This document shows, one piece after another, positions 16,819-28,876 of a stretch of DNA of 28,876 nt. Within the stretch, counting starts at the first letter, position 1; each line of letters starts with the position of its first letter. Both the position numbers and the translations under genes were made by a program. The stretch is taken from the IMG/VR virus record IMGVR_UViG_3300030105_002229, positions 1 through 28,876 of that record; one strand, given 5' to 3'. The notes below the pieces were generated by a model that saw only the letters and a list, made by a program, of their open reading frames with translations, did no database searches and was not told the DNA's origin. This DNA comes from a virus.

Positions 16819-18270
16819 ATGTCAGCTACAATAGAACTAAAATACTTTAATACCTTCTGGTTAAAAAGAATACAAGATATATCTTATGCAGAACAAGTGG
16901 TGGGGGGCGTAACATATCCCATATCGCCTACTTTTAATGATCCTCTTGTTCCTGAAAATTTACCACTTACTTTTACTTATAAAAGTAATAACCCTGAGGA
17001 TAAAAACGGACTAGCAACGTTTATTGTAAGTCCTGACGATGACAAAGATTGGTTAATAGAAGAATCCAGAATACGAGGAGGCTATAATAACACATCAGTC
17101 GATTTAGGTGTTAAAGCTTATTTAGTAGAAGAAGAAAATAATCAAACCCATAAAGCTAGCGGATTAATATATTCAGGTATATTTAATTCTAGAACAGGTA
17201 TAAATCAAACTAATCAGTTTTCAGTTGCGGAAGATATTACAAGAACTATAGATCCTGCTAATGGTTCTATTCAAAGACTTTACGCTGAAGATACAAATCT
17301 TATTATATTTCAAGAAAGTAAGGTAAGTAAATCTTTAATAGATAAAGATGCAATATATTCAGCAGAAGGAAATGCTAGTGTTACTAGCCGTAATTTAGTT
17401 ATAGGTCAAAACGTAGCTTTTGGAGGTGAATACGGAATAAGTAAAGATCCTGAATCTTTTGCTGTTAACGGTTATAGAAAGTACTTTACAGATAGAGAAC
17501 AAAATGTAGTTTGTAGGTTGTCTATGGATGGTATAACCATCATATCTAATTATGGAATGATTGATTTTTTTAGAGATAAATTATCTACAGCAAAAGTTAA
17601 CGGAATATTTGGGGGCTGGGATGCTCATAATAAACAATATGTAATATCAATAAGCGAACAGCAAGGATCCAATAGAGAAACAGAATATAATACATTGTCT
17701 TTTGACGAAAGTGCAAAGGGGTGGACTAGTTTATTTAGTTATAAACCAAATCAAATTTTTAGCTTAAATAATAATTTTTATACCACTAAATTAGGGGAAA
17801 TTTATAAGCACTATTCATTTGATAATTCTACTTCTACACATGGTAGGTTTTATGGAATAGGGTATAATTCTAAAGTAACATTTGTTTTTAATGGTGCCCC
17901 TTCTATGATTAAAAACTTTCAAACTATTAATTACGAAGGTGATAATGGTTGGATAATGGAATCTTTTAAAACAGATGTAGACACAGCTTTCCCTATAACA
18001 GCTTCTAATAGGCCTACCACATTAATTGCTATGCAAAATAATTTACTTGTAAATAATTTTAAATTAAAAGAAAATAAATATTATGCAAATTTAGTAAACA
18101 ATAGCCCCTCCTCATTTGGAGAAATTGTTTGGGGAAGTTCTTCCTCTGGACTTAAAGGATTTTATGGAGAGGTAACTATGAAGATAATTAATGAAACTAC
18201 CAATATTAGAAATGCAATAGGTAAAAAAGAATTATTTGCAGTAAGCACAGGATTTGTGCGATCATCTTAA
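16819..18270 (+). CDS. Beta-rich tail protein, 483 aa
   Basis: The product lies 14 bases after the 1570-residue tail gene and is almost wholly strand-rich. It has repeated propeller-like segments: RLYAEDTNLIIFQESKVS, NRKYFTDR-like KYFTDREQNVVCRLSMDG, IFGGWDAHNKQYVISI and FSLNNNFYTTKLGEIYKHYS. The order of a 'read-out' strand, then a Gly-Trp-Asp-type turn, is common in phage tail hub and nozzle proteins. It may complete the structure begun by the preceding protein, with which it is probably co-expressed. No enzyme motif or membrane segment is visible. It could instead be a separate tail-fibre anchor. Confidence 0.72.
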   Translation: MSATIELKYFNTFWLKRIQDISYAEQVVGGVTYPISPTFNDPLVPENLPLTFTYKSNNPEDKNGLATFIVSPDDDKDWLIEESRIRGGYNNTSVDLGVKAYLVEEENNQTHKASGLIYSGIFNSRTGINQTNQFSVAEDITRTIDPANGSIQRLYAEDTNLIIFQESKVSKSLIDKDAIYSAEGNASVTSRNLVIGQNVAFGGEYGISKDPESFAVNGYRKYFTDREQNVVCRLSMDGITIISNYGMIDFFRDKLSTAKVNGIFGGWDAHNKQYVISISEQQGSNRETEYNTLSFDESAKGWTSLFSYKPNQIFSLNNNFYTTKLGEIYKHYSFDNSTSTHGRFYGIGYNSKVTFVFNGAPSMIKNFQTINYEGDNGWIMESFKTDVDTAFPITASNRPTTLIAMQNNLLVNNFKLKENKYYANLVNNSPSSFGEIVWGSSSSGLKGFYGEVTMKIINETTNIRNAIGKKELFAVSTGFVRSS

Positions 18271-18295
18271 ATTAATAAAAATAAAAAATAAAATT

Positions 18296-19066
18296 ATGCC
18301 AAACCCAATAGGATTAGCTATGGCTGGAGTAGGAGTTGTTACCGGCGTTATAGGGATGTTCACAGCAAGCAGCCAAAAAAAAGACGCTGAAAGAGCAGCT
18401 GAGCAAGCTAAAAGAGAAATAACGATGTTTGAAAATTCCCGCGATGAGGTAATTAATCCTTATGCGGGAGCTGTTTCTCAAGCTGACATGATAACTGATT
18501 TGTCTGGTAATTTAACTAACCCATTTGCTGGCTTAGGAGTAGCTACGCAGGCTGCGGAGATCCAGATGGAACAAACAGATATTGCTCTAGCAAATACATT
18601 AGACACGTTAATGGCTACAGGAGCGAGCGCCGGAGGAGCTACAGCGTTAGCTCAAGCTGCTGCTAGAAGTAAAAAAGATGTTTCCGCAAGTATAGAAACT
18701 CAAGAGGTTGCTAACGAAAAATTAAGAGCTCAAGGTGAGCAAAACTTACAACAACGTCAATTGCAAGAACAGCAAAGAGTTCAACAGGGACAAGTTGCAG
18801 AAGAAGGAAGAGTGCAAGCGCTTCAAGGTCAAGGTCTAGCAATACAGCAAGGGGTTCAAGAAGAAAGAAACTACGCTACTTTAGGAAGACTACAGGGACA
18901 AGAAAATCAAGAAAGACAAAATATAGCAGATGCAAACGCTAATTTTAATAGTAGCTTAGGTAATATAACTAGCGGTCTTATGGGGGCAGCTTCTAGCTTT
19001 GCAACACCTGAAGGAAAAGGAAAAGGAAAAGGAAAAGGAAAAGGAAAAGGAAAAGGAAAGAACTGA
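18296..19066 (+). CDS. Ejection/internal virion protein (T7 gp14-like position), Gly-Lys tail
   Basis: ATG at 18296 follows the A/T-rich leader AAAATAAAATT and is preferred over a GTG at 18254 inside the previous gene. The 256-residue product starts with a hydrophobic Gly/Ala/Val segment (residues 3-22, IGLAMAGVGVVTGVIGMF), a plausible membrane-spanning stretch. Most of the rest is Gln/Glu/Ala-rich helix (residues about 25-50 and 130-215), probably coiled coil. It ends with eight Gly-Lys pairs and Asn. N-terminal membrane helix plus long helical part, upstream of a gp15-sized and a giant protein, matches the logic of T7 gp14, which forms the outer-membrane part of the DNA ejection channel. 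Role inferred by analogy. Confidence 0.75.
   Translation: MPNPIGLAMAGVGVVTGVIGMFTASSQKKDAERAAEQAKREITMFENSRDEVINPYAGAVSQADMITDLSGNLTNPFAGLGVATQAAEIQMEQTDIALANTLDTLMATGASAGGATALAQAAARSKKDVSASIETQEVANEKLRAQGEQNLQQRQLQEQQRVQQGQVAEEGRVQALQGQGLAIQQGVQEERNYATLGRLQGQENQERQNIADANANFNSSLGNITSGLMGAASSFATPEGKGKGKGKGKGKGKGKN
19013..19060 (+). repeat. Hexanucleotide repeat (GGAAAA), eight units
   Basis: Seven perfect GGAAAA units (19013-19054) and one GGAAAG unit encode Gly-Lys eight times at the C-terminus of the ejection-type protein. Read in the +1 frame the same DNA encodes Lys-Glu repeats. Gain or loss of a unit would add or remove Gly-Lys without changing the frame. It is a simple-sequence tract prone to polymerase slippage. 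Confidence 0.95.
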
Positions 19067-19106: not shown

Positions 19107-20309
19107 ATGGCAACATACGGAGAATATAAAGTAATTAGCGATAAATCAGCAGCAAATTTGCAGAATACTATAAGCAAAAGTGTTACTGGTAACATAGCTA
19201 AAATTAAAGCTACACAAGAGCGTGTTCAGAAGGAAGGGCGCATGTATGACATTAGAAAAAGAAAACGAAATAAAGAAATTAGCACAGACGTAGCGGAGTT
19301 TGAAAAAAAAGGCAAATCAATAGCTAATGGAATAAACGATAGTTTTAACAAAGAATACAATACTCTATTAACTGAATATAGTGAATATACTGATATATTA
19401 GAAGATCCTAACTCTAATAGAAAGTCAAGACGTAGCGCTATGGAACAATTAGCAACACTAGACAGAGATATACTAGCGGCAAAAGCTAATCAAGAGACTT
19501 ATATTGGAGGAACGGCTATTATGGAAGAAAAGCTAAGTAATTCAGCTGCCATGGGAAGTGATTATGGTTTCGTTAATTTATCAATGGGAGATAATAAAAC
19601 AAATACAGACGGTGGAGTAGCTCAGGATATAGCTAATCAACTAATTGGTAAACCTGGTAAAAATGATGAGTTTATAAGAAATCCCGATGGAAGTATCGAA
19701 GCTACGGGAATGTATCTTGACGCGAATAATAATGAAGTGTCTTATATAACAAAGCTTACTCCTGAACAAGCTAACGATTTTTTAAATAACCCTACTTATA
19801 ACTACATTAAGCCTACTGAAAACGCTGTTAAAAACCTAGAGGGTACGTTTTTAACAAAAAACGGAGCGTTAGTAGAAGACTTTATGCGGGACAGAACAAA
19901 TCAAGTTATAAAAATAAGAGAAGTAGAAGGCGATGGTAGATCTTTTGAAAGAAGAGAAACTAGAACAGTTGTCACGGGTGTTGCAGAAGAAATTGCAGGA
20001 CAAGCGGAAGCACAATATAATGCGTTTATGGCTAATGAAAATAGCATGGCACAGGTGCAAGCTTTAGAAACCATAGGTTTAACCGAAGCTGCTCTGGATT
20101 TATTACAAGATGAGGGTAAATCAATTTCTTTTAAAAAGCTATTTATAGAGCGGATAACCGAACAAATAGATAAAGGTATAATAAATACAAATCCAAAATC
20201 AGGTAAAGGACTTTTTAAAGACGAAAACGGATGGTATTTTGTTGAACAAGTGAGTAAGACTGAAATAACAAAGGGAGTATCAAATGAATTTAATTCAGGT
20301 AAAGAATAA
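19107..20309 (+). CDS. Putative internal virion protein (T7 gp15-like position), 400 aa
   Basis: ATG at 19107 follows AAAAAATTATAAAA. Longer in-frame starts (from 18999) would force translation across the hexanucleotide repeat of the previous gene and are unlikely. The 400-residue product is charged and helical at both ends (ANLQNTISKSVTGNIAKIKA, RYTLLTEYSEYTDILED-like NTLLTEYSEYTDILED and AEEIAGQAEAQYNAFM). The central part is mixed (SDYGFVNLSMGDN, NPDGSIEATGMYLDANNN). No signal peptide, membrane segment or catalytic motif is seen. It stands between the gp14-like gene and the giant gene, where T7 has gp15, a component of the periplasmic ejection tunnel. It is shorter than T7 gp15 (about 747). 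Function is inferred from position only. Confidence 0.75.
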   Translation: MATYGEYKVISDKSAANLQNTISKSVTGNIAKIKATQERVQKEGRMYDIRKRKRNKEISTDVAEFEKKGKSIANGINDSFNKEYNTLLTEYSEYTDILEDPNSNRKSRRSAMEQLATLDRDILAAKANQETYIGGTAIMEEKLSNSAAMGSDYGFVNLSMGDNKTNTDGGVAQDIANQLIGKPGKNDEFIRNPDGSIEATGMYLDANNNEVSYITKLTPEQANDFLNNPTYNYIKPTENAVKNLEGTFLTKNGALVEDFMRDRTNQVIKIREVEGDGRSFERRETRTVVTGVAEEIAGQAEAQYNAFMANENSMAQVQALETIGLTEAALDLLQDEGKSISFKKLFIERITEQIDKGIINTNPKSGKGLFKDENGWYFVEQVSKTEITKGVSNEFNSGKE

Positions 20310-20320
20310 ACACAAGACTA

Positions 20321-23300
20321 ATGAAAAGATATAAAGCAATAGTAGAAGGTGTAGAAGAATTTTTTAACGTTACCCCTGACAGATACGACGATTTTATAGC
20401 AGCGCATCCAGACGCCGTGCTTGTTGAAGGGCTTGAAACTCAAGAAAATATTCAAGAAAAAAAGGTTGCTCAAGACCCAAAAAAAGCAAAAGACTCTGCG
20501 ACCGGTGTGAATGCGGAGTCAAAACCAACAGCACTAGAAAGTACGGAATTTCCATTGGAAGATGGTTTATTGGAATTACCAAATAGAACTACCCCTGTTG
20601 ACGAAACTACTTATTCCGGTTTTGCAAAAGGAGAAAAATACGTAGAATTTATAAGCAAAAACGAAAGCGGACAATCTGTTGTTTCTAGAACAGCTATTGA
20701 AGATATAAATTTAGGTAAATATAAAACTATAGAAGATTTTGTTAATGCTTATGATGCTCCAGGCGTTGCCGGTACAGCCAAAATATTAACTGAACAAGGT
20801 AATTCTTCGGAGGAGGAATTGTTTTTAGTACAAAAGAAAAAGAATCCAAAAACTGACAACAATGATCTTCTTGATAAATTAAGTGAAATAAATCCAGTTA
20901 CAGAAGAAAATAATATAGCGGCAGCTTACTTTGGCATAGCAGACAACAGTATACAAGATGTTGAAAGACCTAAAAAAGTAGTTAACGAAAAAGGCTTAAA
21001 TTACACAACATTTGTAAATGAAGATCGCGATGTTGACGTAAAAAACTTTCTTGGAGAAGAAAAATTTGCTAAATGGGAAATGGCCAGGAATAAAGCTTTA
21101 GTAAAAGGGGTTAAGCTTACTAAAAAAAATATACTTGAATTTATTTCCCCTGGCGACATTCCAGAAGATTTTACTAAAGACTATATTAAAACAAAACAAA
21201 ATAAAGAAGCTGAGGTTAATCTCCGTAATGAAGATTTAACATTAGAACAAAAAGTAAAAAAACAATTAAATTTATTAAGCAAAAAAGGAGACGATAAAGC
21301 ATACAACGCGCTTTCTACCGAATGGGAAAGATCTAAAAAGGATGCAAAAGATTACAAAGCTGCTGGCGGAGGCGATTTATATGGTGATAAAAAATTGTTT
21401 AATGAAGAAGATTCTAGAGTATACAAATCATTTAATACAAGATTTCTTGATCAATATTACGCCAACGAAGGTCAAAAGTTAACTAATATAGTTACAAGCA
21501 GTAATAATGCTGTAAAAAAATTTAATGAAGATATTTTAAAAATAAACGACCAAAGCAAAAAGCTTGAAAAGCAGTTAGAAAACGATATAACTGCGCTTGA
21601 AGAGTTAAAAAAAATAGAAAACCCTACGCAAGATGATGTAAACAAATATAATGATATAGTAAAAAATATTAGAGGCGTTTTAGCTGGAGACAAAGTGGCA
21701 ACTTTGAGTAAAAATATAAATATATTAGCTGCTAGTGAAGAAATATTAAAAATAAACGGTGATATATTACAAGAAAAAATAAAAATCTTTTCAGGGGGAT
21801 CAGAAGGCTCTAAAGACCAAAAATCTGAAAATGAAATAAACGTTGTACTTGACGCTTTAGGTAAAAACTATAGTAAAGTTGATAAATTAGCTCACGTGCT
21901 AGAAGTTGCGTTTATGGGCTCTGGAAGTATGCTTTACAATTCAGCTGTTAAAGGAGTGGTAGATTTGTTAGAGCCTAACAGAAATCCTGAAACAGGAGAA
22001 ATTTCTGAAAATGGATTTGCTCAAGAAGTTTTAGCTTGGCAGAGAATTGCAGCTACTAATAAAGAAAGCTCAGTAAACTATAATCAAGAATTACAAAAAA
22101 AATCAGTAGAAGAATTTCCAATAGCTTTAACATCAGACGATTCTTCTAGCAAAGGAGATTATCTTGTTGATATGCTTATTAACAATGCTCCCTCAATAGC
22201 TGTTGTAGCGGGTAGTATGGGAATTGGATCTATTGCAGCGGCGGGAGTTAGCGGCGTGGCTAGAGCGGTAATCATGAAAAACGCTATGAATGTTGCAATG
22301 GCTCCCTTTTTTGTTATGGAATCAGGTGGACAAATGGCTAATATAGAAATACAACAAAGAGAGTCCACTAAAAACATTGCGGCTTTAGAAAGTATATTAT
22401 TAGATCTTCCTAAAGGAAATACAATAGATAGAAGAAAAATTACAGACCAAATTGCTGACCAAGAAAGAATACAAAACTTGTCTCAAGCTCAAAAAGCATT
22501 TAACAGTTATGCTTTTGGGGGAGTAGCTACTTTTGCTGAAAGGTTTGGTACTTTAAGATTCATGAGGGGATTTGCTGGAATCGCTAAAAATTTATCTGAT
22601 CCTTTGCTTAAAAAATACATGGCTAGTGGATTTAAAAAAGCTTTTATTAAGACGGGCGCAAATCTTACCACTGCAGGGCTAGGGGTTATAGTAGAAAATA
22701 TAGAAGAAACTCTTACTGTTTTAGGTCAAAACTTTTTAGATAATAATGTTTTAGGCGATAACAAAAGCTTAATAGAAGGTCTTGATAAAGAATTTTTTAA
22801 CAATGTCAGCGTAACCTCTTTTGCTATAGGCGGACCCCAAGCTAGTCAAGGGGTATATCAAGCTTTTTCTCAAGAGGTTAAAACAGCAAGAGAATACGCT
22901 GAAGAAGTTAAATTAAGAGATCAGATACAAGGTTTAACTCAGACTTTGAATGCAATGGACGGAAGAACCACTGCTGCTATAAATGTTCAAAAACAAATAG
23001 ATGTTTTAATGAATAAATCTGCTTTGCTAAATACAAGCATAGTCGGTAAATTAAAAAATTTAGATTCAGAAGATATAAACACAGTATTTGAAAATAACAA
23101 CAAAAAAAGACAATTAAAGCAAGCTGCACAAGAAGCTGCAAGTGGAGGCAAGTTAAATCCTGGAACTAAGAAATACATAGAAGAGTTACAAACGCAATTC
23201 AACGATCTTTCTGAAGTTAACGCTAAACTATTGAACAAAGACGTAAAGAAAAACGAACAGGAGTTTAAAGCTGCCGAAATGGGCCCTAGAGCTGCTGCTT

Positions 23301-26300
23301 ACGCTAGTATGTATCAGCTTAATAAAGACATAGTAAATGCTATTGGAGGAGATACAAACTTACTTGAAATTAATAAAAGAGAAGAATTAATAAGTTATCT
23401 TAATGCCCAATTATCTAACGGCAATATGACGGAAGATCAACAACAAAAAATAGTTGATGGCTACGACAGAAATGTTAATGCGGCGGTTAATGATTTTGAT
23501 AACACTATTATAGTGTTTAATGATAATGTAAAAAAATCTCTTTTATTTGGAGATTCAGAAACAGGAGGATTTGCAGCAGTGTCGCCTATTCATGAATTAG
23601 GCCACATACAAACTAGAAGAAAAGGTAGGTTTAAAAACGCAAAAATAGCAGCAGCAGGCGACGCTATGATACTTAGCTTAGAAGAAGATATGCTAGCTAG
23701 ATTAGATAGCAAAAAAATAACCGAAGAGCAACATGATATATTTGTAGGAAGAGTTGAAACTTATAGAGAACTTGGAGCACAAGGAACAGTTATGGCTGAT
23801 GAAATGATACAAATTATTTCAGATATGACAAACTTAGGATTACTTCCTAAGAGTTCAATAGTTAATTCTCCTACCATTAGTTCTTTTGTAAAACAAGTGG
23901 CTGGAGCCGTATTAGGAGATAGCGCAATGTTTTTACAATTAGATAATGCGGAAGGTGTTTATGCTTTTGTTAATTCTTTTCAAAATAGAATAGATAACTA
24001 TTCTTTTAAGTCATTACGTGGGGATAAAGCAAATAAACAAGGTAATACATCTTTTTCTGAAAGCTTAAATGCCAAAACTCAAGGAAAAATAAATAAAGCT
24101 TTAGATGTTCTTGAAGAAGCAGAAATTGCTTTAGAAGAAGATTTTGATAATCCTCAGGCTCAAAAAGCAGTTGAAGACGCTACCGCTGCTTATAATTCTT
24201 TGATAGAACAGGAAGCTAATGCTGTTGAAGATGTTACTGTTGAAAAAGAAGAAGAAGTAATTGCAAGTGTACCAGCTGAAAATTTTATTCCAAAGAAAAA
24301 AGATCCTTCTACTAAAAAAAGATCTTTAACTCCGGAAGTAAAAGAAAAAATAGAGGTTAAGCTAGCTAAAGCTCAGGAAGAGAACAAAAGGATTATAGCT
24401 GAAGAAAAAGCTAATATTAAAAACAGAGTTGCTGAAATAGAATCTATTCCCGACAAAGAATTGTCTAGAACAGAAAAAAGCATACTTATAAAACTTTCTG
24501 AAGATAACCCTGTAGAATTTGCAAAGCAAGAAAAGCTTACCGTAAATAAGTCTGAAGAGTTAAAAGCTTTAGAAAAAGAAATAGCAAAAGATTTGGAAGT
24601 GCCTATTGAAAAGTTTGTTAAGTCTGTAGGTGTCCTTTTTTACAAATTGCAAAAGCCTCAAATAAGAGATACTGTAGATCTTAACACATTTTTAGAAGTA
24701 GTTAGAGGAGACGTCTTAAATATGACTATTCGTGAATTTAAAAAGAATACTGTAAATAGACAAGGTGAAGCGGTTATTAATGATATAGAAGATATTATAT
24801 TTTCTAGAGGAGGTCGTAGAATTATAGACGTTTCAAAAAGGCTTATAGTAGGTGAAGAAAAAACTGATAGCACTAAAGACATAAAAAGTGAACAAGTAAA
24901 AGATGTTAAAAAAATAAAAGCCTCTTCAATCTTAGCTGGAACAAAAAATAGATACGAAAAAGCTAAAAAAGCTGTTCAAGATTATTGGAAACAAAATGAA
25001 GGTAATAAAAAAGTAGAAAACTTTAAAGGATTAAAAAGCGTTATTGACGATGTTGTCTCTGAGTTGTTTGGAGTTAAAAAAAGTGCTCTTGTTGCAAGAT
25101 CTGGTAACCTTAATCAATCTGATATGTTAAGTGCTTTAGACTTTTTTACAGCGCCCTTAAATATTATAGAAATAAGAAAAGCAGACGGAAGCATTGAAAC
25201 GGCTAGAATAAGAGGTATTGTAAAAAATACGGCAGGAAAGATTGTATCTAACGAGGCTGCGGATTTTATAGATAGTTTAAACGAAAGAAAGTTATTAGAC
25301 AAAAGTGACCCTAACTACATTGAGGGCTACACGAGGCTTTCAAAAACAACTTCTGTAGCAGAACTTTCTGGGCAACTTTTACCTGAAAGCACTGTTCCTG
25401 ATTATTTTTATGAAGATGGAAAGCCTGGTAGATACCGTAACAAAGCTACGGGCATTGGAAATAAAATCAAAGAAGCTCTTTATACTGTTCAAAAAAGAGG
25501 AACTATAGATTCGGGTAATATAGAAAGAAGTGTTAATGATATATCCGCAAAAGATATATTGGAAATGATTGGAGCTTTTAAAGATTCCGACGGAAAGTTT
25601 AAATTTAATGCATCGGTTATGGGAGCTAAAGTCCCAGGTCAAACATCTGAAGGATTAAGACTACTAGAATTTATTAAACTATACGGAAAGTATATTACTA
25701 ATGAATTAAGTAGAACTGAAACCAACCTTGATGTAATGACCAAAGCTGACATCAAAGGAGGCAAAAGAAACGTAATGTTCTCTGAAGCTTTTTTAGGTGC
25801 TTTACGTAAAGATAACTTTCCTGTTAATCCTTTAGCTGCAGCTATGTTGAATAATATTAACAAAAACGGCACTATTACTATGCAAACAATGGTTGACTTA
25901 ATGTTTAAACCTGCTGTTACTAATTCTTTAGCTGAAATTCCTCAAAGAAAATATAGGCTAGAAATAGCCTTAGCAATGATGCAAGTATCCAAAAATTTAA
26001 TAACTGATACTGAAGCTTTTTTGAAAGTTTACGAACTTTATAAAAAACTGTACGATTATCAAGCTTTAGTTATAGCAGATGGTTTTATATCCCAGCAATT
26101 TGCCGCTGATATTAAAGCAAAAAAAGGAGAAAATCAAGTTAAAGATGTAGTAAAGGCTGTTGAAGAGTATTATACTTTTATTGCAAGATCCGTAAAAACT
26201 ACTAAATATTTGCCTGGCAAAACCAATAAAGCTATATGGGAAACAAAAATAGTGCCTGCCTTTGTAGAATCAGGATTGGTTACTGAAAAAAACGCAGAAG

Positions 26301-28876
26301 AACAAATTAAAAACAAATATAAATTAGAAATAGTAGAAAAGCCAAATAAAAAAGGTGACGGAGTTATTACCTATATGGTTAGTAATAAAATTAAAGTCAA
26401 TGGCTTGATGGATGTTACCGTGCTTAAGGCTAATTTTAATCAATCAAATAGCACTATTGTTGCCAATGAGGCTGTGGATGCTTTTGAAAAAGTTACTGAT
26501 ATGCTTGATTATTTTAGAAAAAATAAAATGAAAGCAGTAGCTCTAGGATTTATTGCTTTAATAAAACCAGATCAAAGAGGATTATTAAGAAAATTATCTA
26601 CCCCGGGATTTGCGGAAAAAAATCCTACAGGAAAGGTAAGTAATATGGTTTTAGAGCACGAAACAGAAGTAAAAACATTAGCGCAGTATGCTTTAGATTA
26701 CTACAATAATGGTAATAAACCTGTATTTCAAGAAAGAGTAAATGACTCTAAAGTAAATCTTGTTACAATAAAAACAGATGAGGCTTTATTAAAAAACAAA
26801 AAGAACAACAAAGTAAAAGATAAAGCTAGGTACAACGGTGTTAATATAATCAAAGAATTTACTTTTAAACCAGTTGTTAAAACTTTAAGTATTAATGAAG
26901 AAAATAAAATAAAAGCAGAACAAACAAAAATAAAAAGTAATACGCTTTTTAGTGAAAGCGGCATGAGCGCTTTTGATTTTGATGATACGTTAGCCACAAG
27001 CAAAAGCAACGTATTATACGAAATGCCTAATGGCAGAACCGGAAAGCTTACGGCAGAACAATTTGCAAAAGAAGGGGAAAATTATTTAGCCGCAGGTGCT
27101 GTATTTGATTTTAGCGAATTTAGCAAGGTTGTTAAAGGTAAGAAAGGTCCATTATTTCAAAAAGCTATAAATAGAGTTAAAAAGTTTGGTAATAAAAACA
27201 TGTATGTAATAACCGCTCGTCCTGCAAACAGTGCCTTCGCTATACAGGAATTTTTAAAAGGAGTAGGATTAAACATACCAATAGAAAACATTACTGGATT
27301 AGCTAACTCAAATCCTCAAGCTAAAGCCGACTGGGTTGTTGGTAAAATAGCAGAAGGGTATAACGATATTTATTTTGTAGATGATCACATTGGCAACGTT
27401 AAAGCTGTAAAAAATGAATTGAAAAAATACAATGTAAATAGTAATGTTCAACAAGCTAAGCCAACATTGTTTTCAGAAAGCTCTTTAAGCAATCAATTCA
27501 ATAAATACTTAGAGGGTTCTACAGGTATTGAATCATTTAAAAAATATAAAAGTGACAAAGCAAGGCTTAAAGGTAGATTTAAAGGTAAGCTTGATGTTTT
27601 TATACCACCTTCAGCTGAAGACTTTTTAGGTTTATTGTATCAAACTTTAAATAAAGGTAAGTTAGGTAATGCTCAAATAAAGTTTTATGAAGACAATTTA
27701 CTTAAGCCTTACGCTAAAGCTAATTCACAATTACGTACAGCTAGAGTTCGCAGCATAAAAGAATTTGCTGCTATAAAGAAAAAGTTAAAAATTGTACCTA
27801 AAGATTTAAAAAGATCTTTTAAATTTGAAGATGAAAACGGTAACATTAAAGATAGTTTGTTCACTAAAGAACAGGCTATAAGAGTTTATATTTGGAATTC
27901 ACAAGGCATAGAAATGCCTAACTTATCTCAAGTAGATTTAGCTATATTAGTAAATGAAGTTAATGCTAACCCTGAATTAAAAGCTTTTGCTGATGAACTA
28001 CTGAAGCTTAATAGAGGAATGGATTCTAAGGCGCCATCTAAAAACTGGATGGATGGCAATATAGGTATTGACTTGCAAGCCAATTTAAACTCTGTAGGTA
28101 GAAAACAACTATTAGAAGTATGGCAACAAAATGTAGACGCTATATTTTCTGAAGAAAATCTTAATAAGCTAGAAGCAGCTTATGGTCCGGAATACGTAAA
28201 CGCTCTTAAAAGTTCTTTAAGACGGATGAGAACAGGTAGAAGTTCAGTTCCGGTTACAGACAATGAAGCTGGTAATAATTTAATAACCTGGCTTAATTCC
28301 GCTGTAGGTAACATAATGTTTTTTAATAATAGATCAGCTTTATTACAGATGTTGTCTGCAACCAACTTTTTAAACTTTGAAGAAAATAATATAATAGCTG
28401 CAGGTAAAGCGTTTGCAAATCAACCACAATATTGGAAAGATTTTACTATGCTGATGAATTCTGATTATTTACTTGATAGACGAGATGGTACTAGAATAAA
28501 CATTAACGAAGCTGATATTGCTTTAATAGCTAAGCAAAGCGGGATTCAAGGCGTGATAGCAAAAATATTAGAATTAGGATTTTTACCTACTAAATTTGCT
28601 GATAGTTTAGCAATAGCGACGGGTGGTGCAACTTTTTATAGAACAAAAGTTAATGCGCTTATCAAAGGCGGTATGAGTAAGGCTAAGGCAGAAGCTCAGG
28701 CGATGCAAGAATTTACAAGTGTTGCGGAAACATCTCAGCAATCAAGTGATCAATCTAAAATTAGTATGGAACAAGCTGGGCCCGTAGGAAAGATTATACT
28801 GGCTTTTAACAATACATCGTCACAATATTCAAGGATAATTAAAAGATCCGTTCAGGACCTTTATAATAGACGTGGG
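20321..28876 (+). CDS. Giant ejected multi-domain protein, zincin plus HAD domains (3' partial)
   Basis: I translated this frame by hand from ATG 20321 to the window edge and found no stop: 2852 codons, 3' end missing. In order: a short N-terminal domain (RYKAIVEGVEEFFNVTPDRY, HPDAVLVEG); charged coiled-coil regions (about 250-490); a Gly/Ala-rich hydrophobic stretch (about 624-650); a zincin motif HELGH at 1091-1095 with ADE at 1159-1161; helical linkers; unassigned domains (about 1495-2205); and a HAD phosphohydrolase domain (about 2217-2380) with DFDDT 2219-2223, TARP 2298-2301, Lys2335 and DD 2354-2355. The C-terminal module (about 2648 on) includes AETSQQSSDQ and ILAFNNTSSQYSR. Phe-Ser-Glu motifs recur between domains. 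The position matches T7 gp16, and the layout matches the class called polyvalent proteins, which are delivered with phage DNA. Substrates are unknown. Confidence 0.88.
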   Translation, partial: MKRYKAIVEGVEEFFNVTPDRYDDFIAAHPDAVLVEGLETQENIQEKKVAQDPKKAKDSATGVNAESKPTALESTEFPLEDGLLELPNRTTPVDETTYSGFAKGEKYVEFISKNESGQSVVSRTAIEDINLGKYKTIEDFVNAYDAPGVAGTAKILTEQGNSSEEELFLVQKKKNPKTDNNDLLDKLSEINPVTEENNIAAAYFGIADNSIQDVERPKKVVNEKGLNYTTFVNEDRDVDVKNFLGEEKFAKWEMARNKALVKGVKLTKKNILEFISPGDIPEDFTKDYIKTKQNKEAEVNLRNEDLTLEQKVKKQLNLLSKKGDDKAYNALSTEWERSKKDAKDYKAAGGGDLYGDKKLFNEEDSRVYKSFNTRFLDQYYANEGQKLTNIVTSSNNAVKKFNEDILKINDQSKKLEKQLENDITALEELKKIENPTQDDVNKYNDIVKNIRGVLAGDKVATLSKNINILAASEEILKINGDILQEKIKIFSGGSEGSKDQKSENEINVVLDALGKNYSKVDKLAHVLEVAFMGSGSMLYNSAVKGVVDLLEPNRNPETGEISENGFAQEVLAWQRIAATNKESSVNYNQELQKKSVEEFPIALTSDDSSSKGDYLVDMLINNAPSIAVVAGSMGIGSIAAAGVSGVARAVIMKNAMNVAMAPFFVMESGGQMANIEIQQRESTKNIAALESILLDLPKGNTIDRRKITDQIADQERIQNLSQAQKAFNSYAFGGVATFAERFGTLRFMRGFAGIAKNLSDPLLKKYMASGFKKAFIKTGANLTTAGLGVIVENIEETLTVLGQNFLDNNVLGDNKSLIEGLDKEFFNNVSVTSFAIGGPQASQGVYQAFSQEVKTAREYAEEVKLRDQIQGLTQTLNAMDGRTTAAINVQKQIDVLMNKSALLNTSIVGKLKNLDSEDINTVFENNNKKRQLKQAAQEAASGGKLNPGTKKYIEELQTQFNDLSEVNAKLLNKDVKKNEQEFKAAEMGPRAAAYASMYQLNKDIVNAIGGDTNLLEINKREELISYLNAQLSNGNMTEDQQQKIVDGYDRNVNAAVNDFDNTIIVFNDNVKKSLLFGDSETGGFAAVSPIHELGHIQTRRKGRFKNAKIAAAGDAMILSLEEDMLARLDSKKITEEQHDIFVGRVETYRELGAQGTVMADEMIQIISDMTNLGLLPKSSIVNSPTISSFVKQVAGAVLGDSAMFLQLDNAEGVYAFVNSFQNRIDNYSFKSLRGDKANKQGNTSFSESLNAKTQGKINKALDVLEEAEIALEEDFDNPQAQKAVEDATAAYNSLIEQEANAVEDVTVEKEEEVIASVPAENFIPKKKDPSTKKRSLTPEVKEKIEVKLAKAQEENKRIIAEEKANIKNRVAEIESIPDKELSRTEKSILIKLSEDNPVEFAKQEKLTVNKSEELKALEKEIAKDLEVPIEKFVKSVGVLFYKLQKPQIRDTVDLNTFLEVVRGDVLNMTIREFKKNTVNRQGEAVINDIEDIIFSRGGRRIIDVSKRLIVGEEKTDSTKDIKSEQVKDVKKIKASSILAGTKNRYEKAKKAVQDYWKQNEGNKKVENFKGLKSVIDDVVSELFGVKKSALVARSGNLNQSDMLSALDFFTAPLNIIEIRKADGSIETARIRGIVKNTAGKIVSNEAADFIDSLNERKLLDKSDPNYIEGYTRLSKTTSVAELSGQLLPESTVPDYFYEDGKPGRYRNKATGIGNKIKEALYTVQKRGTIDSGNIERSVNDISAKDILEMIGAFKDSDGKFKFNASVMGAKVPGQTSEGLRLLEFIKLYGKYITNELSRTETNLDVMTKADIKGGKRNVMFSEAFLGALRKDNFPVNPLAAAMLNNINKNGTITMQTMVDLMFKPAVTNSLAEIPQRKYRLEIALAMMQVSKNLITDTEAFLKVYELYKKLYDYQALVIADGFISQQFAADIKAKKGENQVKDVVKAVEEYYTFIARSVKTTKYLPGKTNKAIWETKIVPAFVESGLVTEKNAEEQIKNKYKLEIVEKPNKKGDGVITYMVSNKIKVNGLMDVTVLKANFNQSNSTIVANEAVDAFEKVTDMLDYFRKNKMKAVALGFIALIKPDQRGLLRKLSTPGFAEKNPTGKVSNMVLEHETEVKTLAQYALDYYNNGNKPVFQERVNDSKVNLVTIKTDEALLKNKKNNKVKDKARYNGVNIIKEFTFKPVVKTLSINEENKIKAEQTKIKSNTLFSESGMSAFDFDDTLATSKSNVLYEMPNGRTGKLTAEQFAKEGENYLAAGAVFDFSEFSKVVKGKKGPLFQKAINRVKKFGNKNMYVITARPANSAFAIQEFLKGVGLNIPIENITGLANSNPQAKADWVVGKIAEGYNDIYFVDDHIGNVKAVKNELKKYNVNSNVQQAKPTLFSESSLSNQFNKYLEGSTGIESFKKYKSDKARLKGRFKGKLDVFIPPSAEDFLGLLYQTLNKGKLGNAQIKFYEDNLLKPYAKANSQLRTARVRSIKEFAAIKKKLKIVPKDLKRSFKFEDENGNIKDSLFTKEQAIRVYIWNSQGIEMPNLSQVDLAILVNEVNANPELKAFADELLKLNRGMDSKAPSKNWMDGNIGIDLQANLNSVGRKQLLEVWQQNVDAIFSEENLNKLEAAYGPEYVNALKSSLRRMRTGRSSVPVTDNEAGNNLITWLNSAVGNIMFFNNRSALLQMLSATNFLNFEENNIIAAGKAFANQPQYWKDFTMLMNSDYLLDRRDGTRININEADIALIAKQSGIQGVIAKILELGFLPTKFADSLAIATGGATFYRTKVNALIKGGMSKAKAEAQAMQEFTSVAETSQQSSDQSKISMEQAGPVGKIILAFNNTSSQYSRIIKRSVQDLYNRRG

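Follow-up and report, generated by a model that had tools for sequence, protein, structure and literature searches.

Does the giant protein that ends the virion module of this uncultured virus carry, in the linkers between its modules, the sites at which its own peptidase would cut it? Iyer et al. proposed in 2017 that the in-chain zincin-like peptidases of polyvalent proteins, the commonest domain of these proteins, process the chain in which they reside (PMC5512222). The substrate of such domains has hitherto been a guess. The answer given here is at the level of sequence and consists of letter-by-letter predictions of cut positions, to which nature adds numerous pairings of a site with a peptidase.

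A giant multidomain protein at the end of the virion module

The window, i.e. the whole stretch of DNA that was analysed, covers 28,876 of the 29,743 bases of the uncultured virus record IMGVR_UViG_3300030105_002229. Its virion module begins shortly before the terminase, portal and capsid genes and extends as far as a giant open frame at 20321-28876 (plus strand, like all features of the giant given below). The terminase and portal have relatives in Elemovirus, in Cellulophaga phages (Pervagoviridae, Pachyviridae) and in Tenacibaculum and Maribacter phages; the source virus is marine and of flavobacterial type. The giant frame encodes 2852 residues up to the window end, where its 3' end is open because an N-gap follows. 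Past 28876 and this gap, the frame of the giant is interrupted (stop at codon 2874), and the true C-terminus is unreadable from the record.

The zincin-like metallopeptidase domain (23243-23992; residues about 975-1224) contains the motif HELGH at residues 1091-1095 (23591-23605) and a distant glutamate, Glu 1161 (23801-23803). Among 44 homologues of 10-25% identity, E118, H121 and E187 of the zincin segment are invariant and H117 is nearly so. Judged from these sequences, the HExxH and the third acidic ligand of a zincin-like peptidase are kept across divergent members, with EExxH exceptions that are described below. The AF2 model of the domain has a confident core; searched with Foldseek against PDB and BFVD, it gave no significant match.

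The HAD-family phosphatase domain (FDFDDTLA; 26960-27463, residues about 2214-2381) matches the polynucleotide kinase family phrog_415 with E=8e-4. In Foldseek it finds class C acid phosphatases (E about 1e-3, probability 1.0), with T4 PNKP lower down the list. This phosphatase, related to polynucleotide kinase phosphatases, adjoins the C-terminal domain in 114 homologues; in the rest, other modules take its place. The conserved C-terminal domain itself (27482-28876) runs beyond the window end; it has at least 556 relatives among the IMG/VR stretches checked, and a tblastn search with it against GenBank phages gave no relative.

None of the Pfam polyvalent domains matches the window protein at E<=1. 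Two observations bear on a possible polyvalent nature, which would imply injection of the chain. A zincin-like domain is joined to a HAD domain in a single protein, and in cultured relatives the product of the gene at the matching place, the last of the same module, is annotated as a structural protein.

Copies of the motif in the window protein

The first-pass annotation had read recurring Phe-Ser-Glu motifs in this protein as candidate cleavage sites at domain boundaries. The motifs are where it placed them: FSES at F1245 (24053), F2210 (26948) and F2384 (27470), with the related copies FSRG at F1494 (24800), FSEA at F1820 (25778) and FSEE at F2609 (28145). An additional copy, FSEF at F2264, had been overlooked. 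FSE is the most over-represented 3-mer of the window protein (6 against 0.62 expected, Poisson 5e-5), and FSES the most over-represented 4-mer (3 against 0.04). Corrected for the testing of every k-mer, 22 of 300 shuffles are equally extreme for FSE and 45 of 300 for FSES (P about 0.07-0.15). With a corrected P of about 0.07 for FSE, the window alone is therefore no proof, and chance is excluded only at the level of the family.

The two copies flanking the HAD domain are strong candidate sites. TLFSES at F2210 (26942-26959) occupies the N-terminal junction of the domain, with 121 alignment ends within 15 residues of it; TLFSES at F2384 (27464-27481) occupies the junction between the HAD and C-terminal domains. 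In the model, which covers residues 2120-2560, the HAD fold is predicted with confidence (pLDDT about 80-91), and pLDDT drops below 50 only at 2204-2209, beside F2210, and at 2381-2387, at F2384, besides the variable upstream stretch 2130-2190. Both motifs are thus predicted to lie in or beside low-confidence linkers, outside the folded cores, an outcome in favour of the first-pass proposal, which a place inside such cores would have refuted.

Two other copies are plausible sites. TSFSES at F1245 (24047-24064) sits in the linker just after the zincin-like domain, within the low-confidence region 1224-1262 of the model, and the homologue L003 has TAFSKD at the corresponding place. At VMFSEA (F1820; 25772-25789) the sequence is VMFSK in L003, VMFSES in L006, and MFSK, LFSK or MYSK in several aligned relatives.

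The remaining copies fare worse. IIFSR at F1494 (24794-24808) is unsupported as a site, as two of the three aligned relatives read DIIFQRGG. FSEE at F2609 (28145-28156) is rejected: IFS[EKDP] is fold-conserved there in nearly all relatives, a single alignment end lies nearby, and the motif is kept in L005 and L008 despite their QSK- and ESK-type junctions. F2264 is rejected likewise: nearly all relatives keep it as a fold-conserved position, irrespective of the type of their junction motif, and 0 alignment ends lie nearby. A location at domain boundaries therefore holds for F2210 and F2384, and for F1245 in the low-confidence tail after the zincin; it is plausible for F1820 and fails for F1494, F2609 and F2264.

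The motif across the homologue family

Scans of IMG/VR and of genome contigs yielded a set of 240 distinct homologues, the window protein counted among them; 183 are full length. Regional counts of FS[KRE] were made in 147 non-redundant giants with the HAD domain left out. In the region from the zincin-like domain to the C-terminal junction the motif occurs 276 times against 84 expected (3.3-fold), and N-terminal to the zincin 88 times against 68. Permuted or altered controls are flat, with ratios of 0.70 for SF[KRE], 1.19 for [KRE]SF and 1.06 for FT[KRE]. The letter after the serine is K in 196 cases, E in 61 and R in 30. Fold-conserved positions account for the high counts in the HAD domain and for some of the high counts in the C-terminal domain.

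Alignments tend to end where the motif stands: there are 11.1 ends near FS[KRE] against a background of 4.7 (2.4x), and the permuted controls, at 3.1-3.4, stay under background. The motif is also confined to the giant, with 316 copies against 134 expected in giants and 89 against 100 in other ORFs.

The junction commonly takes the form [IVL]KFS[KER][ST] in the family and xxFSES in the window protein. At the HAD junctions the motif is conserved among homologues while the surrounding linkers vary, as the cleavage-site reading had foreseen. The phenylalanine does not survive as a fixed letter: other members have Y, A, E, Q, T or S in its place, and about a third of the giants have a C-terminal junction without xS[KRE]. 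Where the C-terminal junction is of the F type, more FS[KRE] is found at junctions far from the HAD domain (P=0.002).

Fission of the gene at the motif was considered and set aside: short C-terminal ORFs are few, and they do not start at a junction. Separately, one giant (L344; MW202828.1, 741-12320) has two HEFGH motifs and two copies of FSETP..QQ, perhaps from a duplicated segment.

Motifs match within one protein

In 107 non-redundant proteins, the motif that precedes the HAD domain was compared with the one that follows it. The within-protein match score is 15.56, against 12.35 (SD 0.31) when proteins are swapped; none of 50,000 permutations reached it, the maximum being 13.98. The effect is limited to the junction itself. 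A protein matches itself better than its nearest relative (P=8e-5), and not better than the best of its three nearest relatives (15.6 against 16.1), a comparison that favours the relatives and in which related proteins possibly share a motif.

Matched pairs differ widely in their letters. NTSEKM occurs twice in L086 and in L106, KQSK three times in L005, and AKASKRI (L072), ASKKV (L092), AKQSKR (L234) and KFSKSLN (L046) twice each; the pair of the window protein is TLFSES. Among further homologues, L161 is of the ASKR type and L144 of the FSK type. Between proteins the letters of the junction motif thus vary while each protein stays matched.

Matched residues use the same codon in 72 of 144 cases, against 80.8 from codon usage, and in 50 of 95 cases by another count, against 50.4 expected. 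Serines at matched positions come from different codon blocks, TCN against AGY, in 18 of 33 cases. Synonymous codons being randomised, selection acts on the protein and not on the DNA. As far as sequences can tell, the family thus combines the matched junction sites and the protein-level selection that a self-processed polyprotein would have.

Relation between the motif and the peptidase

Similarity of the motif tracks similarity of the zincin once C-terminal and HAD similarity are removed (r 0.11, P=0.003); in proteins with clear pairs, the same partial correlation is 0.24 (P<0.001). Among the non-adjacent regions tried, the zincin has the highest correlation with motif similarity. With all other regions controlled, the correlation is 0.14 (P<0.0025) in the clear-pair set and 0.06 (P=0.10) in the whole set. 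HAD similarity, that of the domain between both motifs, tracks motif similarity as strongly as the zincin does, so the link between zincin and motif is only suggestive.

Five homologues (L016, L017, L037, L053 and L207) read EExxH, as EELFH or EEIFH, where the others have HExxH, and their motif is retained; the first zinc-binding histidine is replaced by glutamate, the other residues being unchanged. L123 and L103 have matched motifs, with no zincin detected. Two further members, L181 and L151, have the variant HEXXXH. Cultured counterparts were paired with the giant by gene order alone. Those without HExxH (phi38:1 gp101, phi19:3 gp129, Panino and Gundel) show no excess of FS[KRE], 4 against about 4.3, and gp21 of Flavobacterium phage elemoA (3694 residues), which has HEIFH, shows 6 motifs against 2.45.

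We judge it rather probable that the motif marks where a phage polyprotein that processes itself is recognised and probably cut. That the chain is actually cut, that the zincin is the cutter, and at which stage, we infer. The giant would be made, and probably packaged, as one chain, with a long N-terminal part followed by the zincin-like metallopeptidase and several modules on flexible linkers, among them the HAD phosphatase and the conserved C-terminal domain. The linkers C-terminal to the peptidase would bear the sequence favoured by this in-chain enzyme, which could thus set the modules free, in the maturing head or else once the protein has been ejected into the host. The computed support for such processing consists of the motif itself, its place downstream of the zincin-like domain, its position at junctions, the matching within a protein and the selection at the protein level. 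Against it speak the retention of the motif in the five EExxH members, the matched motifs of L123 and L103, the third of the giants whose C-terminal junction lacks xS[KRE], the HAD similarity that tracks the motif as closely as the zincin does, the absence of a significant structural match for the zincin-like model, and the zincin-bearing polymerase of phage N4, which is packaged uncut (PMC5512222). What endures of the first-pass polyprotein proposal is the motif at the HAD junctions of homologues, co-varying within the protein, beside zincin-like residues that are nearly invariant; F1494 and F2609 are lost as sites.

Rather than being cut, the copies could dock to one partner (portal, core protein, chaperone or zincin scaffold) and thereby order the modules for packaging or ejection. 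A single common partner would be enough for matching within a protein, and the EExxH members retain the motif; we nevertheless consider docking unlikely, since there is no motif excess upstream of the zincin, and since the exact placement at module junctions and the zincin-linked pattern fit cutting better.

It is less probable still that the motif is cut by a different protease, a separate phage or host enzyme, and that the zincin does something else. Such an enzyme could lie outside the 29.7-kb record, and the motif is kept in members with EExxH or an undetected zincin. However, other ORFs show no excess of the motif, and a search of the window for a maturation protease revealed no clear one: a Peptidase_S24-like match at 765-1367 stayed below the threshold. 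Motif differences between close relatives would be left unexplained by a host protease.

Chance, or the composition of disordered linkers rich in motif residues, could account for the corrected excess in the window protein; it is contradicted by the family-level tests, whose controls were permuted or altered motifs of equal or similar composition, and we hold it to be very improbable. An effect at the level of DNA (gene conversion, linker duplication or short homologies for module shuffling) is hardly credible, for although module shuffling is real in these giants, codon sharing is no higher than expected and the matched serines switch codon blocks.

Comparison with known systems

A self-processing giant would resemble the polyproteins of RNA viruses, in which a protease acting in cis cuts matched sites between modules and the letters of the sites drift jointly between relatives. 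The likeness is an analogy, with no claim of homology, and cutting is presumed in the giant. In the prohead-protease maturation of the T4, phiKZ and SPN3US type, packaged ejection proteins are cut at short motifs with a glutamate needed at the cut. The giant differs in that lysine is commoner than glutamate after the serine, so that the T4/phiKZ-type rules do not match, and in that the motif is confined to the giant.

With polyvalent proteins the giant shares a very large size, a multidomain build and an in-chain HExxH; the HExxH and HEXXXH variants described for their MPTase domains (PMC5512222) both occur here. It differs in its motif: no named cleavage motif was found in that work, nor in a search of the openly licensed literature on polyvalent proteins. 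P1 DdrB, DarA and DarB contain no repeated motif. LPD38 polyvalent proteins from proteobacterial genomes show no clear excess of FS[KRE] (18 against 12.3, with 16 for the permuted control), so the junction motif is not general to polyvalent proteins. The virion RNA polymerase of phage N4 is likewise very large, is ejected, and contains a zincin-like domain with HExxH (PMC12633501; PMC5512222); compared by description, it differs from the proposed polyprotein in being packaged uncut, as it is reported to be unprocessed in the particle (PMC5512222). While processing by the zincin was already proposed in 2017 (PMC5512222), the signature of the sites and the concerted way in which they evolve appear to be new.

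We put at somewhat under an even chance the broader proposition that a widespread lineage, mostly of uncultured aquatic podoviruses (over 550 related IMG/VR stretches), packages a true self-cleaving polyprotein, in which zincin and junction sites co-evolve, giving every phage a cut code of its own, and the single chain that is injected splits into several effectors inside the host. If so, phages would deliver several early proteins in one chain by a polyprotein strategy, and their peptidases could be turned into a panel of site-specific proteases that differ in the sequences they recognise.

Other features of the module

The protein encoded at 16819-18267 contains the Crassvirus muzzle protein C-terminal domain PF25729 (E=2e-9), in a module whose terminase and portal are nearest to those of Elemovirus and Cellulophaga podoviruses. 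The protein at 18254-19066 ends in a glycine/lysine (GK) repeat. Two frames overlap at 18999-19066, where the GK repeat reads as a KE repeat in the next frame; the start of the following gene is probably later, near 19107.
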